A DNA stretch of 29,521 nt from Fragilaria crotonensis (Eukaryota; Bacillariophyta; Fragilariophyceae; Fragilariales; Fragilariaceae): contig JAKSYS010000732.1 of the NCBI GenBank assembly GCA_022925895.1, positions 1-29,521 on the forward strand, written 5' to 3'. The notes beneath the pieces are model-generated. The model had not been told where the DNA came from. It saw only the letters and a program-made list of their open reading frames with translations, and searched no databases. Both the position numbers and the translations under genes were made by a program. Positions 856-28,874 of the stretch are shown here, piece after piece; positions within the stretch are counted from its first letter, which is position 1; each line of letters starts with the position of its first letter.

Positions 856-3800
856 CTATACCATGTCAGTTTTCCCGTAGTTCCTAGCAGGCGTCTGATT
901 TGCTTTTGGTTTCGCTTTTCCTGGTGCCAGTTTACCCGTATTCCACTTCCCTTCTTCCTTCCTTGTTGCCTCAATAGATCGAGCGGCCCCATACGTATCC
1001 TCCCCACCTGAGTGCTTAGGGTTCGAGTTGTTGCCATTCGCATCAACAAGCTTTCCCCATCTGGATTTTTTGCCTTCTTTGACACGTAACTCGACCGGAC
1101 CGTGCGCAAAAATACACTTATTTCGTTTTTGCATTGGGCAAAACGTTCCTAAACTGCTATCCCAATGGTTGCACAAACGTGTGCGAAACTTTGAATCATC
1201 AGCGCATCGGGCCAGGTTGCCATCTAACTTCTTCAGATTTGAATCACCTCTTCTGATCCATTCGTCATCAGCACGCAACCAACCGCGACTTTTGAAAGTC
1301 TTCGCGGCCGTGCTTCCGTCCCAGATAACGATATCCCCATCCGGGAGAAGAGGCGCTGTCGCGTCCCATTGTCCTTTTTCCATGTCGACGACGTGATTTG
1401 TGTCGGTGGCAACTTGACATTCGGTACTCTCTACAAGAAAATTGTCATCGCGCACCGCACCATTGAGAGTGTCGAACGTTTCATATTTGCGTTCTTGGTG
1501 CGTGTAGGTGTCCGTGCTAGCCTGAATATTCGCTTCGGGGGTCCGGAATTCGCCCCTGTCGAGGAAATCGTCGCACTCGCCTACGTTTGCTAATTCCTTC
1601 GCTTCAAGTCTCCGCCTAGGAAGAATTGGCGTTGGAATCGAGTACTTCTGCGCCAAGGGATCGTCGGCATCAAGGAATTCTTTGCTCAAGCTAAAGCAGT
1701 GCATCAAGAGTCTAGGGAAGCGACCTTCGAAGTATAAAAGTAAGCCGTCTGGATTTGGACCAACTCTCACCTTGACGTGTCCCGGTAGTTCATCATAGTG
1801 ATGATGTTTGTTGCGGATGAGTCGGAGGAAGTCTCGTACAGATGACGGATCGTAGGTACGAAATTTCGACACATTGCTGATCAGATCAGGGTCGAGGGAT
1901 TGATCCCAGGCTGTGCCAACCACTTGCGCCGCATTTCTCTCTATTGCAAAGACATTTGCAGCGAATCGAGAGGATACCTTTTTGCCCTGCTCCACCAATT
2001 GGGCGTCATTTTCGATTCGATCAGAAATGTCACACAGAAACGCCAGCTTTTTCCGTGGACTCCAGAAGAAGGGATGCTCGCAAACCTCTTGTGCCGTGGG
2101 TCGTTGAGTGGCATCCCTGGAAATCATGGCAGTAATTAGATCGTGCGCATCCGGTGATATGTCAAGGAGCTCTTCTGTTGACGTCTTGTTACGCATGATG
2201 TTAACTTCCCGCTCGTACCAATCTCCAAACGGATGAGTTCCAGGGACGAGGGTGCAATGGAAAATGCACCCTAGTGAAAAAATGTCCACGGAACGACTAG
2301 TTCGAGAAGACATCGCGGCATCAAGAGGAGATGTTTCCATTAACGAGTCAGTACGAGAGTTACTTTCACCAGACTTGACAGACGACGATTCAGCAGACCA
2401 TCGAATCGCCATGACTTCTGGCGCCTGCCATCCGACGCTTCCTGGCCCAGCTCCGACCAAACGTGACTCGCAACCATTCACCGATCCCTGAATCGACGCA
2501 GCTCCCAACGTACTCAGTCCGAAGCTACTTTGCCCTGCAAGCTGTTTGCCAAGACCCATATCAGATATCTTTGCAATGTAGCCTCCTTTCTCGTAGCGAA
2601 CGATAAACTCGTCTTCGCCTTTGAGTCCGTCGGGCGTGAAAGCAGCTTTGACTTTCGTTCGTCCTGACCAAGCCAGCAAGATATTGGCTGGCTTGAGATC
2701 CCTGTTGACAACATCGAGGCGTTAGTTCGCTCGTTGATCGGATGAGTAAGTCGCGCACAGTACTACTTACCTATGCACTATCCTCAGAGAGTGCAAGTGC
2801 CGAACGCCGCACGCAATTTGGTATAAAGTCGCCTGGACAGTTTCCCTTAGCTGGGGGTGCTGCAAGGGACCGGACTCCACTGAATGCCTTCTGAGCTCCG
2901 CAATCAAATCGTGCAACGACATATCACATAATTCTAGAGCCAAATATACAAAGTCTCCTTTGACTTCCTTCAGAAAGTATCGAACAACATTGGGGTGCCC
3001 ATCGCTTTCAATGAGCAGCGAGATCTCTCTGTCAGCACTCGCGTGATAGGCCTTCAGCATTCTCTTGACGGCTACTTGTCGACTATCCAACGTCCCTCTG
3101 TAGACAACAGTCCCATGACCTCCGAAGCCCAAAACGTCATCAGTGACTTGAATGACACCAACATTTCGAACTCCATCGCCGTTGACACTGCTTTCAGCGA
3201 TGGCGCTCGTACTTTCGAGAGATGCCATTGGCTGTATCGCAGTCTCCTTCTCTTTTCGCTTCTTTGCCTTGATTCGTCTTCCCATGTCAAATGCCAAGAC
3301 AAAGAGAAGGGCCATCGTGGGTGGAAGCCAGGATTCCATTAACTTGAAGAAATTACGCTTATTCTTGCGAAATTGTTGTAGCTCCAAGAGGTCGCTTTGC
3401 ATGGAATGCATCTGTTGAAAGGGTAGCACTGCTGTTTGGTCTGCAGTCCCATCACTGTCTAGAAAGGATCCTTCTAAGCTGGACACAAAATCATGATTGT
3501 GGTGAATCCCACCTACCAAACATGCAGGGAAATTAGGGTTCGTTGGTCCACAGGTTTTCTTAGCAAGAGCGGAGACCTTGGAATGTTCGTCAGACTTGTG
3601 AGAATAGGTTCCTGTCGCCGGAGTCTTTGCAAGATTAGGAAGCTTGCTACCTATTGCTTTCGATCCGACAGCTGACGAGGCCGGGGCGGTCGAATGGGGC
3701 AAACCAATCGATGTCACAAGCTTGGCTTGAGAAAGTCGTTTCCCAAGCGGCATGGCGAAGAGCTGTCCACTCGATAGCGCACCAACAATTGTCTGCTCAG

Positions 3801-5028
3801 GTTCTTCGGAGGCTTTTATCAGATCCATTTGCCGTTCCAATTGCCGTGCTACATATTCAGGCGAGCTATCGGGTAAAGGAGCATCCGGTAAGATATCCAC
3901 ACCTAGCGAAGTTCCAGTCGACGCCTCCAACGCAAAAGCAACAGGAGTATCAAAAGTTTCGTCAGACACCCAGTCAATACCTCCTGTGTGCGCGTTCCGG
4001 AGCGCAACGTTCCCATTCGGCGTCGCGATTAGCATGGCTAACTGTTTCTTGGCCTCCTCCTTCGTCGGAAGCATCAGGCGAGGTGCGTGAGGTTGCGAGC
4101 GAATATCCTCAATATCATCAACCATCATATCTCGAACACCCATGATTTCCGAGCTAGAAAATTTGACATCCATAGCGCCACTTCTGGCATCGAACAAGGA
4201 AATCGAATAATCGACGCGGCCCACCCAAACAATGTTCCTCCCTTGAAGGTCTGGACCCTCGTCTTGCGACGATGCCACATCGCCCCCCGTCACAACCCGC
4301 AAGATTTCTCCCGTGTCTCGGTCCATGGCTGCTGCGGTAGCTTGTCGGGATCCGACGTAAAATCGACCTCGGGAGTCGACGAAGGGGGCTCGCGCAACCA
4401 ACTCCTTGAGCGTGGACGTTGCCGTGAGCTCCTTGTCACGACCGGCCGTCAAGAAGACCCGGCCATCAACCGAGGGCACAGCGGCCGTTCGAGAATCGTG
4501 GGAGCTTGATTTAGTGGTTGTTGTGGTAGAGACGAGGGGACTAAGTACTTTGGAAGAGTCTGTGCTGTTGGTGGAATCGTCGTTTGCCGGGAGGTCTGCC
4601 TCCATTAGACAAATACCAGATTGTTTCCACAGAACCTTACCCGTTTGACGTGAGAGACCGGCGATACTTCCATCCACGGTCGCTACAACAATAATTCCTC
4701 GACTGTCGTCATCGTTGATCTCTCCATTTAGGAGGGTTTCCGTGGTCCACGATACGCCATGATCAATGTCGTAGTCGTCAGAGACCTCCAATTCTTGTGA
4801 TTCTGGAAATGGATTGCCTTGCGCATCAATATTGACTGAATTGCTGGCCTTTGCCGCAGAAAGTTGCTTTGAGACTACTGCCAGCGACAAGAGCAACCAG
4901 GTATTGACCCAGAGAGCCTTTCGGAGCAATCGATTTCTGGGGCGAGGAGGAACCGCAACGGCGTCTACAACCATAAGGTCGCTCGAAGCGTTCATTCTAT
5001 ACTTTTTCGATTCTGGAGACTCATTCAC
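856..5028 (-). CDS. IRE1: IRE1-type ER stress sensor kinase/RNase with C-terminal CCCH zinc finger
   Basis: This is the transmembrane unfolded-protein-response sensor. Its lumenal domain senses misfolded protein; its kinase and KEN RNase act on the cytosolic side. There are two exons (5028-2771 and 2701-856) and a 69-bp GT-AG intron, giving about 1367 aa. In order: a hydrophobic signal/anchor near residues 37-58; a lumenal region with a PQQ/beta-propeller-type repeat (VDGSIAGLSRQTGKVLW); one membrane segment near 566-582; a kinase with the glycine loop GFGGHGTV, VAVKR lysine, HRDLKPAN (752-759) and DMG (about 800-802); and a KEN domain near 983-1095. The KEN domain keeps the residues equivalent to yeast Y1043, R1056, N1057 and H1061 (here about Y1036, R1049, N1050, H1054). 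A Ser/Thr-rich insert follows the activation loop. An unusual C-terminal extension carries C-x10-C-x7-C-x3-H near 1263-1286. The splice is inferred because it rebuilds the HRD motif in phase. Both frames are clean. Confidence 0.93.
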
Positions 5029-9895: not shown

Positions 9896-11437
9896 ATGTA
9901 CTCTTCTCTTCGCATTGCAACCCGTCGAACGGCAGCTCCTTCTCTGGGAGCCGTCCGTAACTTGAATGTCCATGAATACATTTCGATGGAGATTATGAAC
10001 ACTCACGGCATTGCTACACCAAAAGGGTTTGTGGCATCGACACCAGAAGAAGCCGAAAATATTTACTTGAAGGAGTTTGCCAAGCGTACGTTCAACATTA
10101 TTTCTGTCTCTTTGCCTTATGTGTATTGTTCTCCACAAGTAGAAGTTCTTTCATAATTCTTCGGATTGTTCTCACGTACTGAAATGCTCATCTTATTTGA
10201 ATTCCTCAGCCGGATCCACTCCTAAGGATGTCGTCATCAAAGCGCAAGTTCTATCAGGAGGCCGTGGCTTGGGTACCTTCAAGAACGGCTTCAAGGGTGG
10301 CGTCCACATGGTTACCAAGCCCGGCCAAGCCCGTGAGTTTGCTGCGGCCATGCTCGGTCAAGAATTGGTCACCAAGCAAGCACCCAACGGAATCATTTGC
10401 AACAAGGTGTTTTTGATGGAACGCATGTACATGAGGCAAGAAATGTACCTTTCTATCCTCATGGACCGCGCTTCACAGGGTCCTGTTTTGGTTGCATCTC
10501 CTAGAGGAGGAACCTCCATTGAAGACGTTGCCGCATCCAATCCGGAAGTCATCTTTACGGAACCAATTGATTTGATTAAGGGCATTCAGCATGATACCTG
10601 CGTCCGAATGGCGAAGAACCTTGGCCTTGACGAGGGCACGGGACCACATGACAAGGCCGTCGCTTTGATGAAGAATCTTTACAACATGTTTGTTTCCTGC
10701 GATTGCACGCAAGTCGAAATCAACCCATTGGCGGAGACACCAGACGGCGATATTGTCGTTTGCGACGCCAAGGTCAATTTCGACGATAATGCCGAATACC
10801 GTCAGTCCACGATCTTTGCCCGCCGTGACATCACTCAGGAAGATTCGCGAGAAGTTGAGGCGAGCAAATATGATCTGAACTACATTGGATTGGACGGAAA
10901 CATTGGATGTATGGTGAATGGAGCTGGTTTGGCCATGAGCACCATGGTAAGTGTGTCTTGCAAACAGATGATAAAACATTATGTGAGATTAATTTCGGGG
11001 ACGAGGAAGAAACTCACTGGTTGCCTTCTGTCGCTTCTGCCAGGACATTATTCAGCTAAAGGGTGGCAGCCCAGCAAACTTTTGGACGTTGGCGGAGGTG
11101 CTAACGCAACCCAGGTTCAAAAGCCTTTGAAATTCTCAACGCGGACCCTCGCGTCCAAGCAATCCTGGTCAACATTTTCGGAGGTATCATGAGATGTGAC
11201 GTGATTGCGACTGGAATCATCAATGCTGCCAAAAATCGGTCTCTCGAAGCCTATCGTGATTCGTCTGCAGGGTACAAATGTCAATGAAGCCAAGACCCTG
11301 ATTGAGGATGCGGATTCCATATGACGTTGGCAGACGACTTGGAGGATGCTGCCATCAAGGCCGTGGGTGTCGCAGAGATTGCGGCGCAAGCTGCCAAGAT
11401 TCGAGTCGGGATCAAGTTCAATGGATTTCTGTTGTAA
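9896..11437 (+). CDS. Succinyl-CoA ligase (synthetase) beta subunit, mitochondrial; frame broken in last exon
   Basis: The enzyme interconverts succinyl-CoA and succinate with nucleotide synthesis in the TCA cycle. The N-terminus ([16 protein letters not shown]) is basic and hydroxylated like a mitochondrial presequence. It is followed by [17 protein letters not shown], the start of the ATP-grasp domain. Exons are 9896-10085, 10210-10946 and 11044-11437, with GT-AG introns of 124 and 97 bp. Landmarks are [23 protein letters not shown] and [20 protein letters not shown]. In exon 3, [16 protein letters not shown], then [21 protein letters not shown] and DDLEDAA are all present but in different frames. 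The breaks fall at an A run (11119-11122), an A run (11231-11235) and a TT (11315-11316). Every conserved block survives, so I take the shifts as sequence errors. The total length matches the family. Confidence 0.88.
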
Positions 11438-11535: not shown

Positions 11536-12280
11536 CTAGCTAAGTGTAATGCGCAACGTCGATCCACCAAGTATCAATTCCACAGGTTCTTCCAACAAGA
11601 ATGCCTCATTTGTAGCCAACGCTCGATCCTTGCAAACAGTACCATTCGTCGATCCGACATCCGTAAAATAGGCTTTGCCAGATATGATTTCGAACTTTCC
11701 GTGGGTGGTTGAAACCTCACTATCCTTGGACAAACTAACTCCCTTCTCTCGAAACTTTTTGCCGGCCGATCGGCCAACTAAGCAAGCAGTGTTGGCTTTC
11801 GGCTGCACTGTCACAGTCATACCAGTATGTGGACCTGTGGTGACTTGAATATGAATGGCTTGCACTTTTTTGATGACAGTAGTATTCAAGGTTGCAAATG
11901 GTTGTTTGGAAATCGCGGCATTATATGCCTTGGCTCCTTTAGATGGAGCGGCAACCATCACGTTCGACGACGAGACGGATGGGACGTTTTCATCAGACTC
12001 CATGATTCTCCACAATTCCTGTTTGCGCTCTTCAAACTGGCGCTGCAGAGATTCAACCAGTTCGGCATGTTTTTGATCCGTCAATGCGTGACTTTGCAAC
12101 AAGTGCCATTGCAAGACATGTTCAACCGACCAATTTTCTGTGGGTTCTATCGTTACGATCGAGAAAGTCAGAAACGGGGTCACAAAAACATGCATTGGAG
12201 TAATCTGAAAAGCAATCGATCTCAAAATACTCACCACTATCTATGGAATGCGGAAAGTCGGGGAAAACGTTGGATGTCAT
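11536..12280 (-). CDS. FHA-domain protein
   Basis: A forkhead-associated domain, which binds phosphothreonine peptides, fills the C-terminal third of about 215 aa. It shows CLVGRSAGKKF, a Ser-rich loop (GVSLSKDSEVSTTHGKF) and the diagnostic DVGSTNGT, ending in ELILGGSTLRITLS. The N-terminal part is helical (NWSVEHVLQWHLLQSHAL, then a Glu/Gln-rich stretch). I infer two exons, 12280-12235 and 12137-11536, with a 97-bp GT-AG intron. This restores a natural start (MTSNVFPDFPHSIDSENWS) in phase; without splicing, the frame would begin in hydrophobic intron sequence. The gene converges on succinyl-CoA ligase with about 100 bp between stops. The phosphopeptide partner is unknown. Confidence 0.8.
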
Positions 12281-12973: not shown

Positions 12974-15900
12974 TCACTGCAACGCGGCATCAATGGGTTG
13001 ATCCTGCACCAAATGCGCCCTCATACCATCATCGAAGAATTTACTGATAGAAACATCTTCTGACAAGCCCTTTCGTCGTCGAGTTTTGATAAGCAGCTCT
13101 CTCGCTAAATGTGGTGGCGGACTGGGTTCCAGTGGATGTAGAATGATGTTCTTATCCAGAGGGTCGCCAGGCACAACATTCCAGTGATCGAACACCGCAT
13201 GAACCATAGCTTGGCCTTGCGTAAACGTCCTTAGATCTGTTTCGAATCCGAAACTATCCAAAACAGGAATGAATCCCTTCACTGAGTACAACATTGACCC
13301 CGAGATTGGACGATCTTGCACAATATGACCTCGCCGCCTAGTCAAAATTGGTTGAATTGAGTCTACCATGTCTCCAGGACATTGAATTTGCAGACGATAG
13401 ATGGGCTCCATGAGACGTGGCGTTGCAGTCAGAAGTGCCGATGCACCGTCCGTCGCGCCGTAGGAATGATTTGACCCCACCTCTATGAATAGGCTTGTCG
13501 GCGAGCGAGGCATTCAGAATCGAATCTTCGTCCCGCGCACCGGTTCTTCGCAGAGGGCCCTCACGAGTCGCCCATTGAAATCCTTGGACAATGCTAGACT
13601 TGCATGTCTTCAAGAGATTCTTGTCAACCTCACTAGGTAGAGTATCATCCAATAGGATGTTCGTTCCATGGGTAGGTGACGCTCCAAATGCCCACACAGA
13701 CCTAGAAGAAAGAAGATCCCAATCAAATTTCTTCTGAAAGAACCGTCCCTGCTTGCGGGTGTCCCAACTTGGATTAATCTTTCCAGCCTCCAGCATCTCG
13801 GCAAGACCGTCGTCTAGTGGCTCTGCAATGAACGTCAACTTGTTCCTCTTATTGGCAGTCTCGGCAAAGCATTTGAGACTGCTGGTTTCAATCACAGTCT
13901 CGCGAAACCCAACGATTGGATCCGAAACCTTGACCTCAATATCAGAGTACACGTGTCGGAGATCGTGCATCATGCAGTCCATGTACAGCTCGCCGGTTCC
14001 AAACAGAACATGCTCCCGCTTTCTTCAACACGGGTTTTCGCCATGGGATACGCCTTGGAGATGCGACGCAACCCCTCCACCATTTTGGCAATTCGCCAGG
14101 ATTTAGCGGCTCTATTGCGAGCTTCATGACAGAGTCACCACCTGCTTGCGGAAACTTGAGCGGCGCAAGATGTGGACCTCATCCTCCTCCTTCGTGGATA
14201 TTGATGCAATCGTGGCTGTTTTGGAGATGGTTGCTTCAATCCCTTCTAACAAGACCCAGTTTCCAGCTGTTGCTCGCGACACAAGAGTTTGTATTCTGCC
14301 ACGGGGGATGGCGACAGCTCCGACAGTCGCGATGCACATATCCTCTTCATCATCCTCGGGAGAGTAACCTTCGCCCAAGACTCGAACTCGTTCCCCCGGT
14401 CGCACGCTTCCTGAATAGATGCGACCAAACGCCGAAAAGTTTTGGCCGTCCTCCGAAGCGTACAGTTTAACAACATGCATCATGAGAGGGCCTTGAGAAT
14501 CGCATTCTAGCATGGCTTGCGCAATCTTTCCGTCCAGCACTCCGCTGTAACACCGTGCCACTTTACCCTTGGCGGCCGCGGATGGAGAAGGGCTGTCAAA
14601 GGGAAAGGGTGACGGTTAGTCCCACAGGGATGCGCCCAAAACTCAAGGAGAATTAGCAGAAGTCACTTACAAGTGTTGCACCACCATATCAACAAAGCCG
14701 CTGGTTGCAGTCTCAAAGAATTTCGAAAGGGCTGCTCGCAACAATGTCCTGGCACTTGCGCGCAATTCGTCCCGGCGTAGCAAAACTCCCACCTTACGCA
14801 GCAGCTTGTTCACGTCCTGTTCTCGTTCTGCCAGACACGCCGAGTACAATTTATAGAGAGGTTCCAACACGAAGGTACAGAACGTGCGCTCGACGCCCGG
14901 AGACTGGCAATTGCGAGCAGATTTGTGAAACAATCTCGATTCCGGATCCAGATAAGAATTTCCCCAGAGGCGCTTGGCAAAGTCGTCAGCTCCAAGATTG
15001 TCGCCCAAGCCATCTTCGCACAAGTGATCAAGATAGAGATTTGCAAAACTTTGTAACGTGAAACACCAACCATGTTGAGCACTAGCAAAGGCGACATTAC
15101 CGCGATCGGGAGATATCTTAGGATAGCGACCGTTCGACGCCTGCGCCACCAAATCATTCACACTCTCCACCAGGTGTAGCAACTTGTAATAGCAGTCACG
15201 CGGCGGCAGTTTTAGTTCCACGATCAATCGGTCCACCTTGTTTATCAACAACGTGATAGGAAGTCCTTCTGAAACAGAATGTCTAACAACCATCTCGGTG
15301 TGAAGCATGATGCCCTCGATAGCATCCAACACAACTACAGCTCCATCGACAGCACGGAGTGCTGCTACACTTTCATCATGAAAGTTGACATGCCCAGGAC
15401 AATCCACCAACGTTACAAGATATGACTTGCCTCTCGTATCAGGCAATATTGTGGAAATGGGTGTGCTGACTAAACTCATTTGGCGTGCTTGTTCACTTTC
15501 CATCTGATCTGCATACCGGGGGCCCTCTCGTGCATTCTGGGATGATACATTGTCTTGCTCGCCGTTGCTATTACTTCCCCACTTGTGTCGTTTCGTCGTT
15601 TCGAGCAGCAAGTCTACAAAGGTTGTCTTGCCCGAATGCAAATGACCAACCAAGGCGAATCCACGTCGGACGCGAGTCGTTTCGTTACCGAATAGAGCAG
15701 TCAAGTAGTTGTCGGTGTATATATAATCGTCTGCTTCGGTGTTTTTGGCTCGATTTGTCTTGGTGGAAACCGGTTCCACGAGTGGTACATTCAAGTCGAT
15801 GGCGTCCTCGTCCAGGACAGCCGTTCGCACGTCATCTCCATAGACTTGGTTCGCACTCGGATAGTGGACCTTATCTTCGTGTAAGACAATGGCTTGCACT

Positions 15901-16094
15901 GGATCTGCTTGACCATCCTGCTCATCATCTTCGACGAGCACCATTTTTTGATCCTGATCGGCCGACACATCAGACGCATCGTCGGGTGCTTGTTCCTCCT
16001 CGTCGTCATCATCATCGGAATCGTCGTCAGAATCCAAGTCCGGACCTATGTAGTTTCCAAACTCGTCGTAGAGATCCTGATCTGCGTCGGCCAT
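12974..16094 (-). CDS. SNU114: Snu114/EFTUD2, U5 snRNP GTPase; frame broken in second exon
   Basis: This EF-2-like GTPase of the U5 snRNP controls spliceosome activation and disassembly. Exon 1 (16094-14671) starts with the family hallmark [20 protein letters not shown] and an acidic stretch. It then has the G motifs GHLHSGKT (150-157), DCPGH (231-235) and NKVD (285-288). A 78-bp GT-AG intron (14670-14593) leads in phase to [14 protein letters not shown]. Exon 2 contains EF-2-like domains with [80 protein letters not shown] and [15 protein letters not shown]. Between 13.4 and 14.17 kb at least six single-base losses move these blocks between frames, for example near 14162 (GG), 14083 (TTTT), 14014 (CCC) and around 13430-13560. 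No nonsense change occurs apart from the shifts. Confidence 0.9.
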
Positions 16095-18748: not shown

Positions 18749-18752
18749 TTAG
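18749..18752 (+). repeat. Target-site duplication TTAG, left
   Basis: TTAG directly abuts the left CCCCCGACAT end, and the same four bases abut the right end at 22105-22108. piggyBac elements normally duplicate TTAA. Confidence 0.6.
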
Positions 18753-18761
18753 CCCCCGACA

Positions 18762-18788
18762 TTTTTGTCCTACCGGGTAGGACAAAAA
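18762..18788. repeat. Subterminal hairpin of the piggyBac-like element
   Basis: Perfect 12-bp arms TTTTTGTCCTAC and GTAGGACAAAAA are separated by CGG, immediately inside the left terminal repeat. Confidence 0.75.
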
Positions 18789-19197
18789 ACAAAATGTTTT
18801 TCGGATCGCCGAATCCATTTTGTCCTCTGGCGGATTTAGCAATAGGACAAAAAGTAACCTTATAACCACGGGTTAATCAAGTTTAACACGAAGAACACCG
18901 TGTTGACCATGATCTGATCACACCATTCTTCATGGCTTACTCGCTCAGTGTCACGGATCGTTTCACAACAACCAAACGCACCTCCGGGGTACACTTGTTT
19001 ATGCGTATGCAATCCAGTTTTGACGTTGAATGACGGGTTGGTACGTTATGACAGTATCATGGCATGGTCGTTGAGACAATTTTCGGTGATGAACACGACC
19101 TGAACCTTTGTTACAATGCGAGTTCTTTACTACTCGCATTTCCTTGCAAATTCCATTGCAAATGAAACAGCAACTTCATCATGCACGATGATGAAGT

Positions 19198-21731
19198 ATG
19201 AAAGGTGCTAACGAGGACCTCCTTGGAGGGATTGAAGATGTTGACAACAGCATGATGGAGACCATGTTCAACCTGAGTGCATACGTCAGCGGTAGTAACA
19301 ATGATGAGGACGACGCGAAAGTGATGATGATCGTCTGTCCAGCACGGTGTGAGGACCAATTGCGATGATGTGGCAAGTCAAGGCTGGACGTATCTCACTG
19401 GATGCAACCGTCCAGAAGTTTCCATTTCAATTGATGGCATCGACAACCGTCTGCTTGACAGGGCTCGCGAAGAAGTTACTGTTGTGCTTCTAAACCTGAA
19501 AAAGAGAATTGGTTCAAGACGCGATCGGGATGTTCGTACAATTTCGCCCGGTGACTGCTTGAAGGCCTTCATGGATCCAAACTTTCTGGGATACATGAAG
19601 GCCTTCGTGTTAACATGAAAATAGTAATGATCTTGTATCAAGCTCCGACATAATTGCATTCATTCGTGTCGAGCTCATGATTTCGTTTATAAGGTAAGAA
19701 CATCAGTTATCAACGCCTTCCTTGTGTTTTTAATTTCATCAATGGACTGACCGGCAATTTGCCTTTTTGTTCTCGTCCCTCTTCTTAGGTTTCCCCCTCA
19801 ATGTACTTTGATCCTGCAAATGCAGCAAACTTCCCTTCCTCCACTGGTGGCATGAGTCACTATCGGTACAGCCAAATACTGAAAGCACTCGATACCACCA
19901 ACCGTGCTCCACGAACGCAGGTGGTGTGTGGAACAACTGGTCGTACTATTGATTCGTTAGGAGTTGGGTTTGGAAGCCCTATGACACACAACACAGATAT
20001 GGCAACTGCCATGTCAATCGTTCAGAACATGTGCTGAGATTGCTTTTGTTCCTGGCACAACAGACATCGGGCTCGATGATGATCTGCTACGACTTCGTTC
20101 TAGAAGAGTTGTGCTTGAAGGGTACTCTCAGATAAACAACCCCAACAAGGGGCTGGGCGTCATCCACCATGGCGCTGTCTCCAACTGTACATCTTTGTAC
20201 TGTGGAGGCCATGTCGCATCTAGGAAAGAGTCGACGATTGATTGAAACTGGCTGCATTTTCACCGGATGCAATAGCAGGTGTTCTTGTTGACGGATTGCC
20301 TTCTGGCCCTACGCGTTATGTGGCGTTGGTGGAGATGAAGTCTAAGTGTTCTCAGGCAACGTTAACTGAAGAGTACAAGCTGATTGCGGAGTTTGGAGAG
20401 TATCAAGAAATCAACGCTGACGAGGATCCTGAACTATTCAAACGAAGCATCCCTGATGCGTCGTACCGATGCCAACTGCTCCATGGTATGGCGTCTGGTA
20501 CTCTCGACCATGCATTCTACGTTGTGGCATCGCTACGGAAGATAATCCGTGTTGTTCATGTTCAAGTTAGGTCGTCCTTGATACGAGAACAGTACCTTTC
20601 TGTGATAACAAATTTGGGTCGGCAGCATCTGAATTGGATAGAGGAGGGGATTGTGCCAACTATGACGTTCGAAGCAGGGTCCCACGCAGTTGATCAGCAT
20701 AGCGTCCAGTGCACCTTGGACGTGTGGAGAGCTCTCTGCAAGTTGATTGATGAGCAAATGAAACCTCTTCCGGCAGGTCGCCACCTAATTCCAGAGGTGG
20801 TGGCGACATGGAATAGGGGCAAGGGTCCCATTGATGTCTACAGTCGCTTTCAGAAGAATTGCAAATCGGCACATTCGCATCTCGGTCCGGTGGGTGCAGT
20901 TTGGTTGAGGTTGATCATGACATGTGTCTATAATGCATACCACGCCCACAATCTCAGTCGGACAGTTTCATATCTTCTCAGTGAGGAATGCAAATCATTT
21001 AAGGACTTCCAAAGGTGCCGTTCACGTCAACTCCCATTCCGTCAATTCTGTCTAGAGCTTGCCAATGATTTGAAAATTGAAGTTCTTCCACCGACAATAC
21101 ATGAAAGCGGGAGCGATGATGATAACAATGATGCCAACAAAGGACACATCATTGCTTCAGTTGCTATTACGTACAACAAACGTGAGGCATACTTCTCCAA
21201 ACCACACCTGATTGAGCGGAGGATGAATCGAAGAGTTCTCCACCAACCTTCATCTGTCCAAAGGCAATCCAGTTGCATCTGGTGTTGTCGTATTGATCAT
21301 TCAACCGGTGAGAGACACACTCGACACGGAAGAAAGACGACTTGGGTGTGTTCAACATGTGATGTTCCACTATGCAAAAAGGCCAAGATTCAATGGACAG
21401 AGCTGTTTTGTTCTGTTCCACGAAGCGGAGACATTGTTCGACCCATGTTGTGCCCAGGCACAAAGCTTAGAAGTGTCAGTCCGCTCACACGGCAACCGAC
21501 GTGCTCCACCATCCCGTCGTACCCCCCGACTTGTCTGCTGTGACTGCGGAAGGACCGATAGTGCCGGCCTCTGCCTCACGGAACGATAACGATGATGATG
21601 ACTACATTCCCGGAAATTCCAGCGGTGATGACGATGATGAAAGCAGTCCCAAGCGTCCTGCAACTCGTCGTAGGACATGCAGTACAATAACCATACCCGA
21701 AAGGAGGACAAGACATAGGCGTTTGACGTAA
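19198..21731 (+). pseudogene. piggyBac-like transposase with internal YqaJ-like nuclease domain, several frame breaks
   Basis: A plausible start is MKGANEDLLGGIEDVD at 19198, an acidic N-terminus. Pieces in shifting frames then give the piggyBac order. GDCLKAFMDPNFLGY and SSSDIIAFIRVELMI are followed by a likely intron (donor near 19694, acceptor near 19788). Then come MYFDPANAANFPSSTGGMSHYRYSQIL and, near 20055-20200, FVPGTTDIGLDDDLLRLRSR (probable first catalytic Asp) with NNPNKGLGVIHHGA. From about 20240 an unbroken frame reads AFSPDAIAG, ALVEMKSK, YRCQLLHGM and YVVAS, which fits a PD-(D/E)XK nuclease of YqaJ type. It is followed by TWNRGKGPIDVYSRF (the piggyBac YN-x-x-KGGVD block). Last are CIWCC, VCSTCDVPLC and a shifted CFVLFHE, the terminal Cys/His domain. 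An acidic, basic tail ends at 21731. The breaks may be decay or sequence error. Confidence 0.65.
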
Positions 21732-22104
21732 TAGAAAGTGGTGTTGTCGGTAAATTCAGAGATAGCGGTCATGATCATTGTGAAGATGAGATTTAACATG
21801 GGGTTTCACCATGTAAAAATCCGAGGATTGATTTTTGTACGGAGAATTTTGGGATAATTTGTCCTTTCAAGAGCGATGAATTTTAGGACAAACGTTTTTC
21901 GACGACCACAAAATAGGGCTATCTTCAGATCAACGTATCTCAACCATTTTTAGGACAAAATGCAAAAGTAGGACAGTTTTAGAAAGGTAATGAAGTCAGG
22001 AAGAAGATGTACGACTACGATTTTGTTTGTATTCGATATCTGGAGTTAGCGAGTGTCGCCAAAATTTGTCCTCTTTTTTGTCCTACGATTTTTCATGTCG
22101 GGGG

Positions 22105-22108
22105 TTAG
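22105..22108 (+). repeat. Target-site duplication TTAG, right
   Basis: This is identical to 18749-18752 and abuts the right inverted repeat. Confidence 0.6.
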
Positions 22109-27153: not shown

Positions 27154-28874
27154 ATGCCAGTACCGCCAGCGCTGTTTGTGTTGGGTGGTCCCACGCTCAT
27201 GGCTGCCAAAACTATGGCATTTGAAATGCTGCCTGCTGTAACATCCGCATCAGTGGCTGCGATTTTGGCGAGACTCCTATGGAAACGCCTTCCAGATTGG
27301 GTGAAGGAAGACGTTTCATTTCGCAACAACAGCTCAGGTCATCGTCCGATGTTGAGCGACTTGCGGCGGTACTGGACCGGATACAGGCTTGGATCGAGGC
27401 GTGCTCGGAACAACTCCAACGGCCGGTACCACATTTGTACGCGTCATTTTGATATACTGGCAGCTCATGGCGCAGCATCAGAGGCAAAGATTACTGCGGC
27501 AGAGGAAACAGACCCATCGGATGGTGGGGATAAGCCGGCGTTGGTTGAGGTGACCTCGTCCATGCCAGCGCTGATGTTGACTTTGAAAACTTGAAAGATG
27601 GCGAACTTGGCCCGTGGGCTTACTATATTGATGATGCCGCTGACTTGCAAGCGAGTGGAGACCTTGCACTTTGGTCTCAAGACGTGTGTCTTGCCATCCC
27701 GGCCGGGATCTGTTGGATATTACGTGGCCATCGGAGAGCAAGCCGATGACTCAGCAACAAATGTCTCTCCTGACCAGCCAAAATCGACCATGATACTTGG
27801 AATTCGAGGAACCTCTACTCTGGAAGAACTGCTAACTGATGCGTGTGGCAGGTCAGTATCCTACGAGGGTCCCAATCGCTATGCGGAGGATTCTGGCGAG
27901 GGAATTGGTAACAGTATTCGAATTGAAGTAGTAGCTCGCGAGGTAGATCAAGTGTGTTTTGGCTCAGAATTCGATCGGGTCGGCGACGAATGGGAAGGAG
28001 AAGTGGAAGTAGTCAGTGGTCACGAACGCGTATGTGTTGAACAAGATGGAAATCAGCTTGATGAACACCTCGGCGATTCAAAACACTTACCTGGTAGACC
28101 GCTCCTTCGACGATCTTCGAATCTTGATTCACAAATACGATGTCACGAGGGGATACTGATTTCAGCAAGGCGGCTGTTCTGGCAAGTGCGACCGATAGTC
28201 GAAGAAAAGATTGTTCGGGGATCATCGGCTTGTTATTGTTGGCCACAGTTTGGGGCCAGTGCTGGGTGCTTGTTGGCCTTGATGCTCAGATCTATGTACC
28301 CAGAATTGATCCAAGCAGACCGGTTACATGTCTACGCATTTGGACCTCCGCCAGTCTTGGACTACGACTCGGCCATTGGGGCGTCTACCTACGTCACATC
28401 CATTGTTCATCAATCCGATCTGATTTCGAGGTGCAGTCTAGCTAATTTGACTGTTTTCCTGGAATTCCTAAGAACAGTGTCGTCCGAAGTCTTGGTTGCG
28501 CAAGACTTGGCACCGTCGAACCCTCGAGCTGCTGGAGCTCTACTGATGCAGCTTTCAAAGGGTGACAAAGTGAGCCGTTCTGGTCCGAACAAGATCTTGC
28601 CGACGCCCTGGCTGCGGCACGGGATAAAAGTAGCAATGCGCGACCCAGATCATTTGTATGTTCCTGGTAAAGTCCTTCTTTTGGAATCGACAGGAACGTC
28701 AATCCTCAGCAAGACCTGCAGAATCCTTCTATTGTCGGATCCCGGCGGTACTACTGCTTGTAACTGACGGAAGTACCCCATCTTTGAGTGATTGAAATGA
28801 ACGGGTACCAAATGCTCGGTGACCACACGACAGCATCATACATGGCTGCGATTGATTCGTTGGCTGAAAGTTAG
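27154..28874 (+). CDS. Class 3 (alpha/beta-hydrolase) lipase, diacylglycerol-lipase-like; frame broken
   Basis: It probably hydrolyses acylglycerols. The N-terminal part (MPVPPALFVLGG onward) is hydrophobic with no known domain. Then, across frame changes, come GELGPWAYYIDDAADL, VGYYVAIGEQ, ILGIRGTSTLEELLTDA (the conserved RGT-S-L/LTD block), CHEGILISARRLFW and VIVGHSLG with the nucleophile Ser near 28247. These are followed by ASAGCLLALMLRSMYPEL, VYAFGPPPVLD, IVHQSDLISRCSLANL (probable catalytic Asp) and MLGDHTTASYMAAIDSLAES (probable catalytic His). The stop is at 28872-28874. One G is missing from the GGGG run at 28252-28255, exactly after the Ser motif. Other shifts lie near 27330-27460, 27560-27700 and 28660-28800. 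All three triad positions are present. The start is uncertain because the N-terminus is not conserved. Confidence 0.75.

Follow-up and report, generated by a model that had tools for sequence, protein, structure and literature searches.

A predicted YqaJ-like nuclease, split by a SAP domain, inside a piggyBac-like transposase of Fragilaria crotonensis

Introduction

DDE transposons have repeatedly taken up nucleases of the repair type, as in Dada, KolobokE, KolobokD and ISL2EU. Here we compare these systems with a piggyBac-like transposon family of Fragilaria crotonensis, one copy of which lies in the 29,521-nucleotide contig JAKSYS010000732.1 (assembly GCA_022925895.1); the whole of this stretch is called the window below. 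The original prediction for the locus was a YqaJ-like nuclease inside a piggyBac-like transposase. This holds for the family, two paralogues of which encode both in a single frame, but not for the copy in the window, which is internally deleted. It can be added that nucleases inside or beside DDE transposases, as predicted here, have precedents.

In Dada of Laccaria bicolor and Ectocarpus siliculosus a DEDDy exonuclease is described between the second catalytic Asp and DxxH. As in the present family, an exonuclease thus interrupts a DDE transposase downstream of its second catalytic Asp; however, that of Dada is a DnaQ-like 3'-5' exonuclease, not a PD-(D/E)XK enzyme, and the superfamily is different (PMC3706591). 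KolobokE is described as a DDE transposon with TTAA sites and a lambda-exonuclease-like PD-(D/E)XK nuclease, both as in the family, but here the nuclease is downstream of the transposase domain and the superfamily is again a different one (PMC9587614). KolobokD is also described among the DDE transposons with a nuclease. ISL2EU is a cut-and-paste transposon that likewise has a YqaJ exonuclease, however, in a separate second open reading frame (ORF) and with a Harbinger-like transposase (PMC4482050, PMC9179366). The role of the nucleases taken up in this way is unsettled, as the PHIS paper states for second ORFs, that of ISL2EU among them (PMC4482050/PMC9179366). Among the matches listed in the open-access literature, which covers neither Repbase nor subscription journals, none is a piggyBac transposase with a YqaJ domain. 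Of the papers in which both words occur, one names them only in a list of filtered transposon domains (PMC13289751), another counts YqaJ among the viral-type domains of a clam genome (PMC7826175), and a third deals with bacterial recombineering (PMC11403445).

With the piggyBac superfamily the present family shares the DDE_Tnp_1_7 N-terminus, three ordered Asp blocks, assigned by motif (D1, D2 and D3 below), and the C-terminal cysteine-rich zinc finger, together with CC tips, a 4-bp TTAA-like duplication and asymmetric ends with a subterminal palindrome. Unlike piggyBac, it has almost 400 extra residues between D2 and D3 (the YqaJ-type nuclease and the SAP domain), its target sites are NTAN and not strict TTAA, and D450 is without a counterpart. 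With phage lambda exonuclease, YqaJ and RecE-like proteins it shares the ordered motifs Q-x4-W-x3-R..., GxxxE, SPD, E-x-K and Q; however, the phage nucleases are free-standing, whereas that of the family is split by the SAP domain and fused within the transposase.

Architecture of the full-length copies

In the assembly to which the window belongs (62.1 Mb, 881 contigs), a protein search whose counts are lower bounds finds at least 74 matches to the nuclease-bearing family on at least 32 contigs, that of the window included. Contigs are given below as C and loci as L numbers. The copies on C509 and C52 have uninterrupted open frames of 999 and 1041 codons. Full copies begin with an acidic N-terminus followed by the start of DDE_Tnp_1_7, to which the first exon has homology, and then show D1, D2, the predicted YqaJ-type nuclease split by a SAP domain, D3 and the zinc finger, all in one open frame in the C509 and C52 copies. 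In C52 numbering the transposase blocks are GLDDDLLR (D97), FFWDRGYG (D180) and GPIDVYSR (D686), with the zinc finger starting from 853, and the nuclease part comprises QRTPEWFLLRKFCITGT from 309, the SAP domain at 380-410, GTLNE (E448), FSPDA (D498), VEMK (E519 and K521) and YRCQ (Q566).

This order places the nuclease between the second and the third presumed catalytic Asp. Since each of the two paralogues has one open frame that runs without a break from a point before D1 to the finger, the nuclease is no separate gene there, and we reject that alternative. The distance between D2 and D3 is 506 and 501 residues in the two open copies, compared with 119-127 in 12 of the 14 ordinary piggyBac copies from this genome, the remaining two having no D3. 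The stretch in between carries the predicted SAP domain inserted within the nuclease, which is an addition to the original prediction. Three frames span it: L046 (25.2 bits) and L047 (29.6 bits) exceed the Pfam cut-off of 23.9 bits, with E-values of 1.3e-5 and 5.2e-7, and L048 (22.4 bits) is just under it.

The C509 copy, which is close to that of the window, and the C52 and C110 copies are 64-68% identical to one another, and all four have a probable short GT-AG intron, recognized by eye, ahead of the long frame. A distant set is grouped around C114 (C23, C616, C39, C658, C483 and C261 at 97-100%, C152 at 82% and C51 at 50% identity to it) and shares 44-46% identity with the copies of the window, C509, C52 and C110. 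In the C114 and C51 copies the intron site is read through, without an intron.

Across copies, decayed ones included, D1 is kept in 18 of 18, D2 in 19 of 20 and D3 in 19 of 24. In the N-terminal part of the nuclease the Trp and the Arg are each kept in 20 of 22 and the Glu of GxxxE in 19 of 23; in its C-terminal part the Asp of SPD is kept in 23 of 25, the Glu and the Lys of E-x-K in 20 of 25 each and the Gln in 24 of 25. These counts exclude L008, L016 and L030, which are loci of duplicated places, and five re-fetched loci were merged for them; L003, where the Glu of E-x-K is changed, was translated and counted but kept outside the alignments. Alignment A1 contains 7 of the 14 translated rows, with L005a, L005b, L011, L012b and L022a omitted as duplicates or fragments and L015 and L023 because of a scrambled nuclease stretch. 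Between diverged copies the ratio of nonsynonymous to synonymous divergence (dN/dS), where computable, is roughly estimated at 0.07-0.11 for the nuclease and 0.05-0.16 for the DDE parts.

Ordinary piggyBac copies, too, number in the dozens in this genome, and several of them have frames of more than 700 codons. Beside the C52 element, at L047 5970-6752 (+), lies an open frame that by eye looks like a Harbinger-type transposase.

Similarity of the nuclease to YqaJ/lambda-exonuclease proteins

As a reference set we used nine phage YqaJ/lambda-exonuclease proteins from annotated records. With the SAP stretch cut out, the family nuclease aligns to them in hhalign with a probability of 86, an E-value of 4.7e-6 and a score of 44.6, compared with 25.6 for the best of 100 column shuffles and 17.2 for the reversed profile. 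The whole-protein profile matches the phage nucleases at the same place (E 0.003). In the subset and flank comparisons, for which 12 of the 14 translated rows were used, the flanking DDE regions reach only 0.51 and 0.36 against the phage nuclease profile; ordinary piggyBac against YqaJ gives 0.74. The N-terminal motif aligns to the phage proteins without gaps (QRTPEWFLLRKFCITGT in the family, QGDDAWHKLRLGVITAS in phage).

The ordered YqaJ motifs, of which the original prediction had noted the D...E-x-K...Q part, are beyond chance. The motif set (Q-x4-W-x3-R-x3-[IVLM][ST]x[ST], GxxxE, SPD, E-x-K, Q) was derived from the phage proteins when the family was already known, and its spacing was made large enough to take in the SAP stretch. 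It is present in 9 of 9 phage references and in both open copies, but in none of 200,000 shuffles of one open paralogue and none of 181 other frames of at least 100 codons (from the window, 15 ordinary piggyBac loci and 2 light-harvesting loci). Its parts taken alone are less specific, with the C-terminal half occurring in 150 and the N-terminal motif in 51 of 200,000 shuffles.

Searches of Pfam, NCBIfam and PHROGs with single sequences gave weak or no nuclease matches, among them TIGR03033 (best 0.006, 2 of 7 rows, 16.7 bits against a cut-off of 68.05) and the RecE-like phrog_434 (0.001, 1 of 7 rows). The Pfam YqaJ search of the whole genome gave 0 matches, and the best match of one family protein in the PDB was SIZ1 (0.15), over the SAP stretch. 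No relatives were found in IMG/VR and GTDB contigs (two peptide patterns each) or, by tblastn, in phages and plasmids, searches that are not informative on other eukaryotes. We call the predicted nuclease YqaJ-like on profile-profile and motif grounds only.

Similarity of the transposase to piggyBac

Hidden Markov model searches, proposed as a check of the original prediction, place DDE_Tnp_1_7 over the Pfam cut-off in L049 (2.5e-7), L050 (2.8e-6) and an L047 construct with the first exon joined and the nuclease left out (1.9e-9), whereas YqaJ stays below its cut-off. Of the 349 positions of the DDE_Tnp_1_7 model, all these matches cover only the first 97; on 10 of the 32 contigs the genome scan likewise finds positions 1-99 of the model upstream of family copies. 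Compared with a profile of 14 ordinary piggyBac copies, the N part gives an E-value of 1.2e-4 and the C part 3.8e-4, and the local matches that reach significance are those of the zinc finger and of the N-terminal stretch ahead of D1. The finger is the best local match of the C part, for which 0 of 60 shuffles score as high. The Pfam model zf-Tnp_2 is below its cut-off both for the window finger (Table 1) and in its other match (0.0036); its genome scan gave no matches, a result made uninformative by the scan's own control. A PDB sequence search with the DDE profile found nothing related.

When the profile is forced into alignment with ordinary piggyBac, D1 and D2 are in register. The motif GTSQRMKSFP starts 23 residues after the D2 Asp, and in piggyBac GTVRxNKRxIP is described to start at G369, also 23 residues after D346 (PMC2533014). 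The two motifs resemble each other, with the Pro shifted by one place. By motif, the three Asp blocks of the family are presumed to be the counterparts of the piggyBac triad D268/D346/D447.

Ends and target sites

The left-end palindrome TTTTGTCCTACCGGGTAGGACAAA has 35 genome matches per strand (0-3 mismatches), compared with 0 for its reversed control; since it is nearly self-complementary, the matches of the two strands are largely the same places. The right subterminal motif has 22 genome matches. Outside the copies examined, it occurs on C131, C284 and C339, and right ends stand alone on C361, C822 and C870. Both ends were examined in 16 copies, and in 10 of them the two 4-bp flanks are the same: TTAG in the window, CTAA on C52 and C18, TTAA on C83, C651 and C367, ATAA on C184 and C191, and TTAT on C197 and C38. 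They are discordant, or one end is decayed, on C27, C50, C110, C49, C327 and C416. The consensus is NTAN with a central TA (TTAA 3, CTAA/TTAG 3, ATAA/TTAT 4); the family target site is a relaxed TTAA. Some of these copies are about 1 kb long, too short to encode the protein.

The element tips are CCCC, and the terminal repeats of piggyBac begin with 5'-CC. T. ni piggyBac is described to have asymmetric ends, with a palindromic internal repeat at the left end bound by a zinc-finger dimer of the cysteine-rich domain (CRD), and to act as a dimer (PMC7351741). The target duplications, CC tips and subterminal palindrome of the family appear piggyBac-like. At C416:8295-8620 (L077) there are two left-end palindromes, separated by 212 bp and each with near-identical sequence before it, as a tandemly duplicated element end.

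The copy in the window

The element at 18753-22104 of the window is a dead, internally deleted copy of this multicopy family (Table 1). All the peptides quoted in the original prediction are present in the window. A single open frame of 433 codons, at 20242-21540 (+), encodes those of the nuclease (SPDAIAG, VALVEMKSK, YRCQLLHGM and YVVAS), together with the WNRGKGPIDVYSRF block and the zinc finger; the key codons of the nuclease peptides are the Asp of SPDAIAG at 20266-20268, the Glu and the Lys of VALVEMKSK at 20332-20334 and 20338-20340, and the Gln of YRCQLLHGM at 20473-20475.

Compared with the C509 copy, 18759-20244 is 94.9% and 20244-22092 is 83.4% identical, and about 994 bp are absent at 20244. 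Because of this internal deletion DIGLDDDLLR is in a different frame from the nuclease peptides; it does contain the presumed D1, as had been proposed, but is not continuous with the nuclease. The deletion also leaves the copy without the D2 block, the N-terminal half of the nuclease and the SAP domain. Hence the second catalytic Asp, which was to be looked for, is lost from the window, whereas full copies have it (FFWDRGYG). The first exon is broken by additional frame changes. Judging from these frames, the window copy is a deletion derivative that cannot be active.

The two halves of the element are unequally similar to C509, and residues 2-178 of the frame 20242-21540 are 99% identical to the copy on C191. 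Recombination between copies possibly lies behind the unequal halves. An Rfam search of the window gave 0 matches at the gathering score.

Table 1. Features of the element in the window
Feature	Position	Strand	Basis or remark
Left target-site duplication TTAG	18749..18752	.	Identical 4 bp at 22105-22108
Left terminal inverted repeat tip CCCCCGACAT	18753..18762	+	Inverted match at right end
Left subterminal near-palindrome TTTTGTCCTACCGGGTAGGACAAA, putative zinc-finger (CRD) binding site	18763..18786	+	Binding presumed
Decayed first exon (frames 19331-19615, 19614-19693)	19331..19693	+	By eye, compared with C509 and C52 first-exon frames
Probable GT-AG intron, 95 nt	19694..19788	+	By eye, from the sequence
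Exon 2 start (VSPSMYFDPANAANFPSS...)	19789..20034	+	Reading frames of window and copies
First-Asp-block frame	19985..20242	+	DIGLDDDLLR at 20063-20092
Presumed catalytic D1	20075-20077	+	Motif assignment
C-terminal half of predicted YqaJ/lambda-exonuclease-type nuclease (SPD, E-x-K, Q)	20242..20607	+	Profile and motif comparison
Junction of internal deletion, ~994 bp	20243..20244	.	Comparison with C509 copy
WNRGKGPIDVYSRF block	20800..20850	+	Presumed catalytic D3 codon 20833-20835, by motif assignment only
C-terminal zinc finger (cysteine-rich domain), CxxC...H	~21250..21381	+	zf-Tnp_2 E 0.01, below cut-off
Right subterminal repeat AGGACAAAAAAGAGGACAAA	22065..22084	-	Right motif, 22 genome matches
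Right terminal inverted repeat tip	22095..22104	-	Inverted match to CCCCCGACAT
Right target-site duplication TTAG	22105..22108	.	Matches 18749-18752

Proposed mechanism and alternatives

We suggest that the window holds a defective copy of a piggyBac-like family, the full-length transposase of which is probably a two-enzyme protein with the nuclease acting on excision ends. The DDE core would cut and paste in the piggyBac fashion at 4-bp NTAN sites, with the zinc finger presumably bound to the subterminal GTCCT palindrome. The nuclease would sit close to the cleaved ends, on the side of the insertion domain, with the SAP domain possibly aiding DNA contact, and would act on the DNA ends produced by excision. 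The role that we find most likely for it is 5'-to-3' resection of the donor break. Resection would steer the donor break to homologous repair from the sister or the homologue, thus restoring the donor copy and raising the copy number. That excision and 5'-to-3' donor resection are coupled in one protein, so that a piggyBac lineage has traded seamless excision for recombination-based repair, is a tentative suggestion.

If true, the architecture would mean that a complete foreign enzyme, and a SAP domain with it, can be accommodated in the DDE fold between the second and the third catalytic residue. A piggyBac version of such a fusion would be useful since the chemistry, structure and seamless excision of piggyBac are well understood, and the effect of the nuclease on donor repair could thus be measured directly.

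Several points weigh against a nuclease-bearing piggyBac transposase. On the nuclease side, the E-value of 4.7e-6 needed removal of the SAP stretch and is 5.9e-4 without it; hhalign gives 9.1e-4 with the near subfamilies only, 0.002 with the C-terminal half only and 0.24 with the distant subfamily alone. No curated YqaJ model is over its cut-off (best 0.023, 1 of 7 rows), and DUF5365, a family of unknown function, matches 4 of 7 rows (best 0.0034, below cut-off). Among solved structures the nuclease profile finds R354, which we take to be the lambda-exonuclease-like Mimivirus protein, at 0.5, below an unrelated nuclear receptor at 0.25. The AlphaFold model of the window frame alone has a predicted local confidence (pLDDT) of 34.7 and is useless. 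Lambda exonuclease is a ring trimer, whereas piggyBac is a dimer.

On the transposase side, the unmodified L047 frame gives 0.2 with DDE_Tnp_1_7, below the cut-off, and the N-part profile score of 43.3 is exceeded by 3 of 60 shuffles (anomalous scores of 134-140). Against ordinary piggyBac the D1-D2 and D3 stretches alone are matched by 66 of 100 and 80 of 100 shuffles, so the triad is assigned by motif. A Ser stands in the family at the place of piggyBac D450. As for selection, dS is above 1.3 and often saturated between subfamilies, which makes the dN/dS estimates rough; for close pairs, most of which are of decayed copies, the ratio ranges from 0.24 to 1.15.

A close alternative to donor resection, also possible but doubtful, is that the nuclease works at the ends of the transposon, where it would trim a 5' overhang or flap or open hairpins. 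PiggyBac is described to pass through hairpin and 4-nt overhang intermediates (PMC7351741), and the authors of Dada propose that its embedded exonuclease processes cleaved 3' ends (PMC3706591); however, piggyBac opens its own hairpins and an extra enzyme would be unneeded (PMC7351741). We favour donor resection because piggyBac needs no such help.

It is unlikely that a genuine nuclease domain has no catalytic part in transposition and serves instead as an enlarged insertion domain that, together with the SAP domain, grips flanking or target DNA. The piggyBac insertion domain is described to line the target DNA channel, and the extra stretch lies between D2 and D3, as do R372, K375, V414 and L416 of piggyBac (PMC7351741). 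Against this, conservation across copies is about equal at the nuclease active site and at the DDE residues, and the rough dN/dS values of the two parts are alike between diverged copies.

Assignment of the element to Kolobok rather than piggyBac seems improbable to us. KolobokE combines a lambda-exonuclease-like nuclease with TTAA sites (PMC9587614), and the family likewise has TTAA-like 4-bp sites. However, the only Pfam transposase models matched are DDE_Tnp_1_7 and, below cut-off, zf-Tnp_2; neither open copy has C/DxxH between D2 and D3; and the third residue is an Asp, invariant in the five rows of alignment A4. Kolobok tips are described as 5'-RR, unlike the 5'-CC of the family, and the KolobokE nuclease follows the transposase domain (PMC9587614).

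An ordinary piggyBac insertion domain with chance nuclease-like motifs would agree with the sub-cut-off curated single-sequence YqaJ models but is very improbable and is rejected, on the D2-D3 spacing and the SAP domain over its cut-off within the region as an ordinary domain, and on the hhalign shuffles (best 25.6 against 44.6) and the motif-set controls (0 of 200,000 shuffles) as a chance resemblance.

Host genes around the element

The assembly has 61 matches to the chlorophyll-binding protein family. One of these proteins starts with a diatom-like leader that ends in SASAF, and the closest solved chains are LHCI proteins of PDB entry 9vfj. By these features the host is, with good support, a photosynthetic eukaryote, probably an alga and likely a diatom or other stramenopile. 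In the window, at 856-5028 on the minus strand, two frames lie next to each other that contain protein kinase and Ribonuclease 2-5A domains and, in the N-part, sub-cut-off propeller-like matches; we take them to be an IRE1-type sensor of the unfolded-protein response. The element itself is surrounded by frames that, by their predicted products, are ordinary host genes: an ATP-grasp protein at 10197-11192 (+), presumably succinyl-CoA ligase-like, an FHA-domain frame at 11536-12237 (-), an EFTUD2-like U5 snRNP GTPase, in pieces, at 13338-16094 (-), and a class 3 lipase at 27598-28767 (+).

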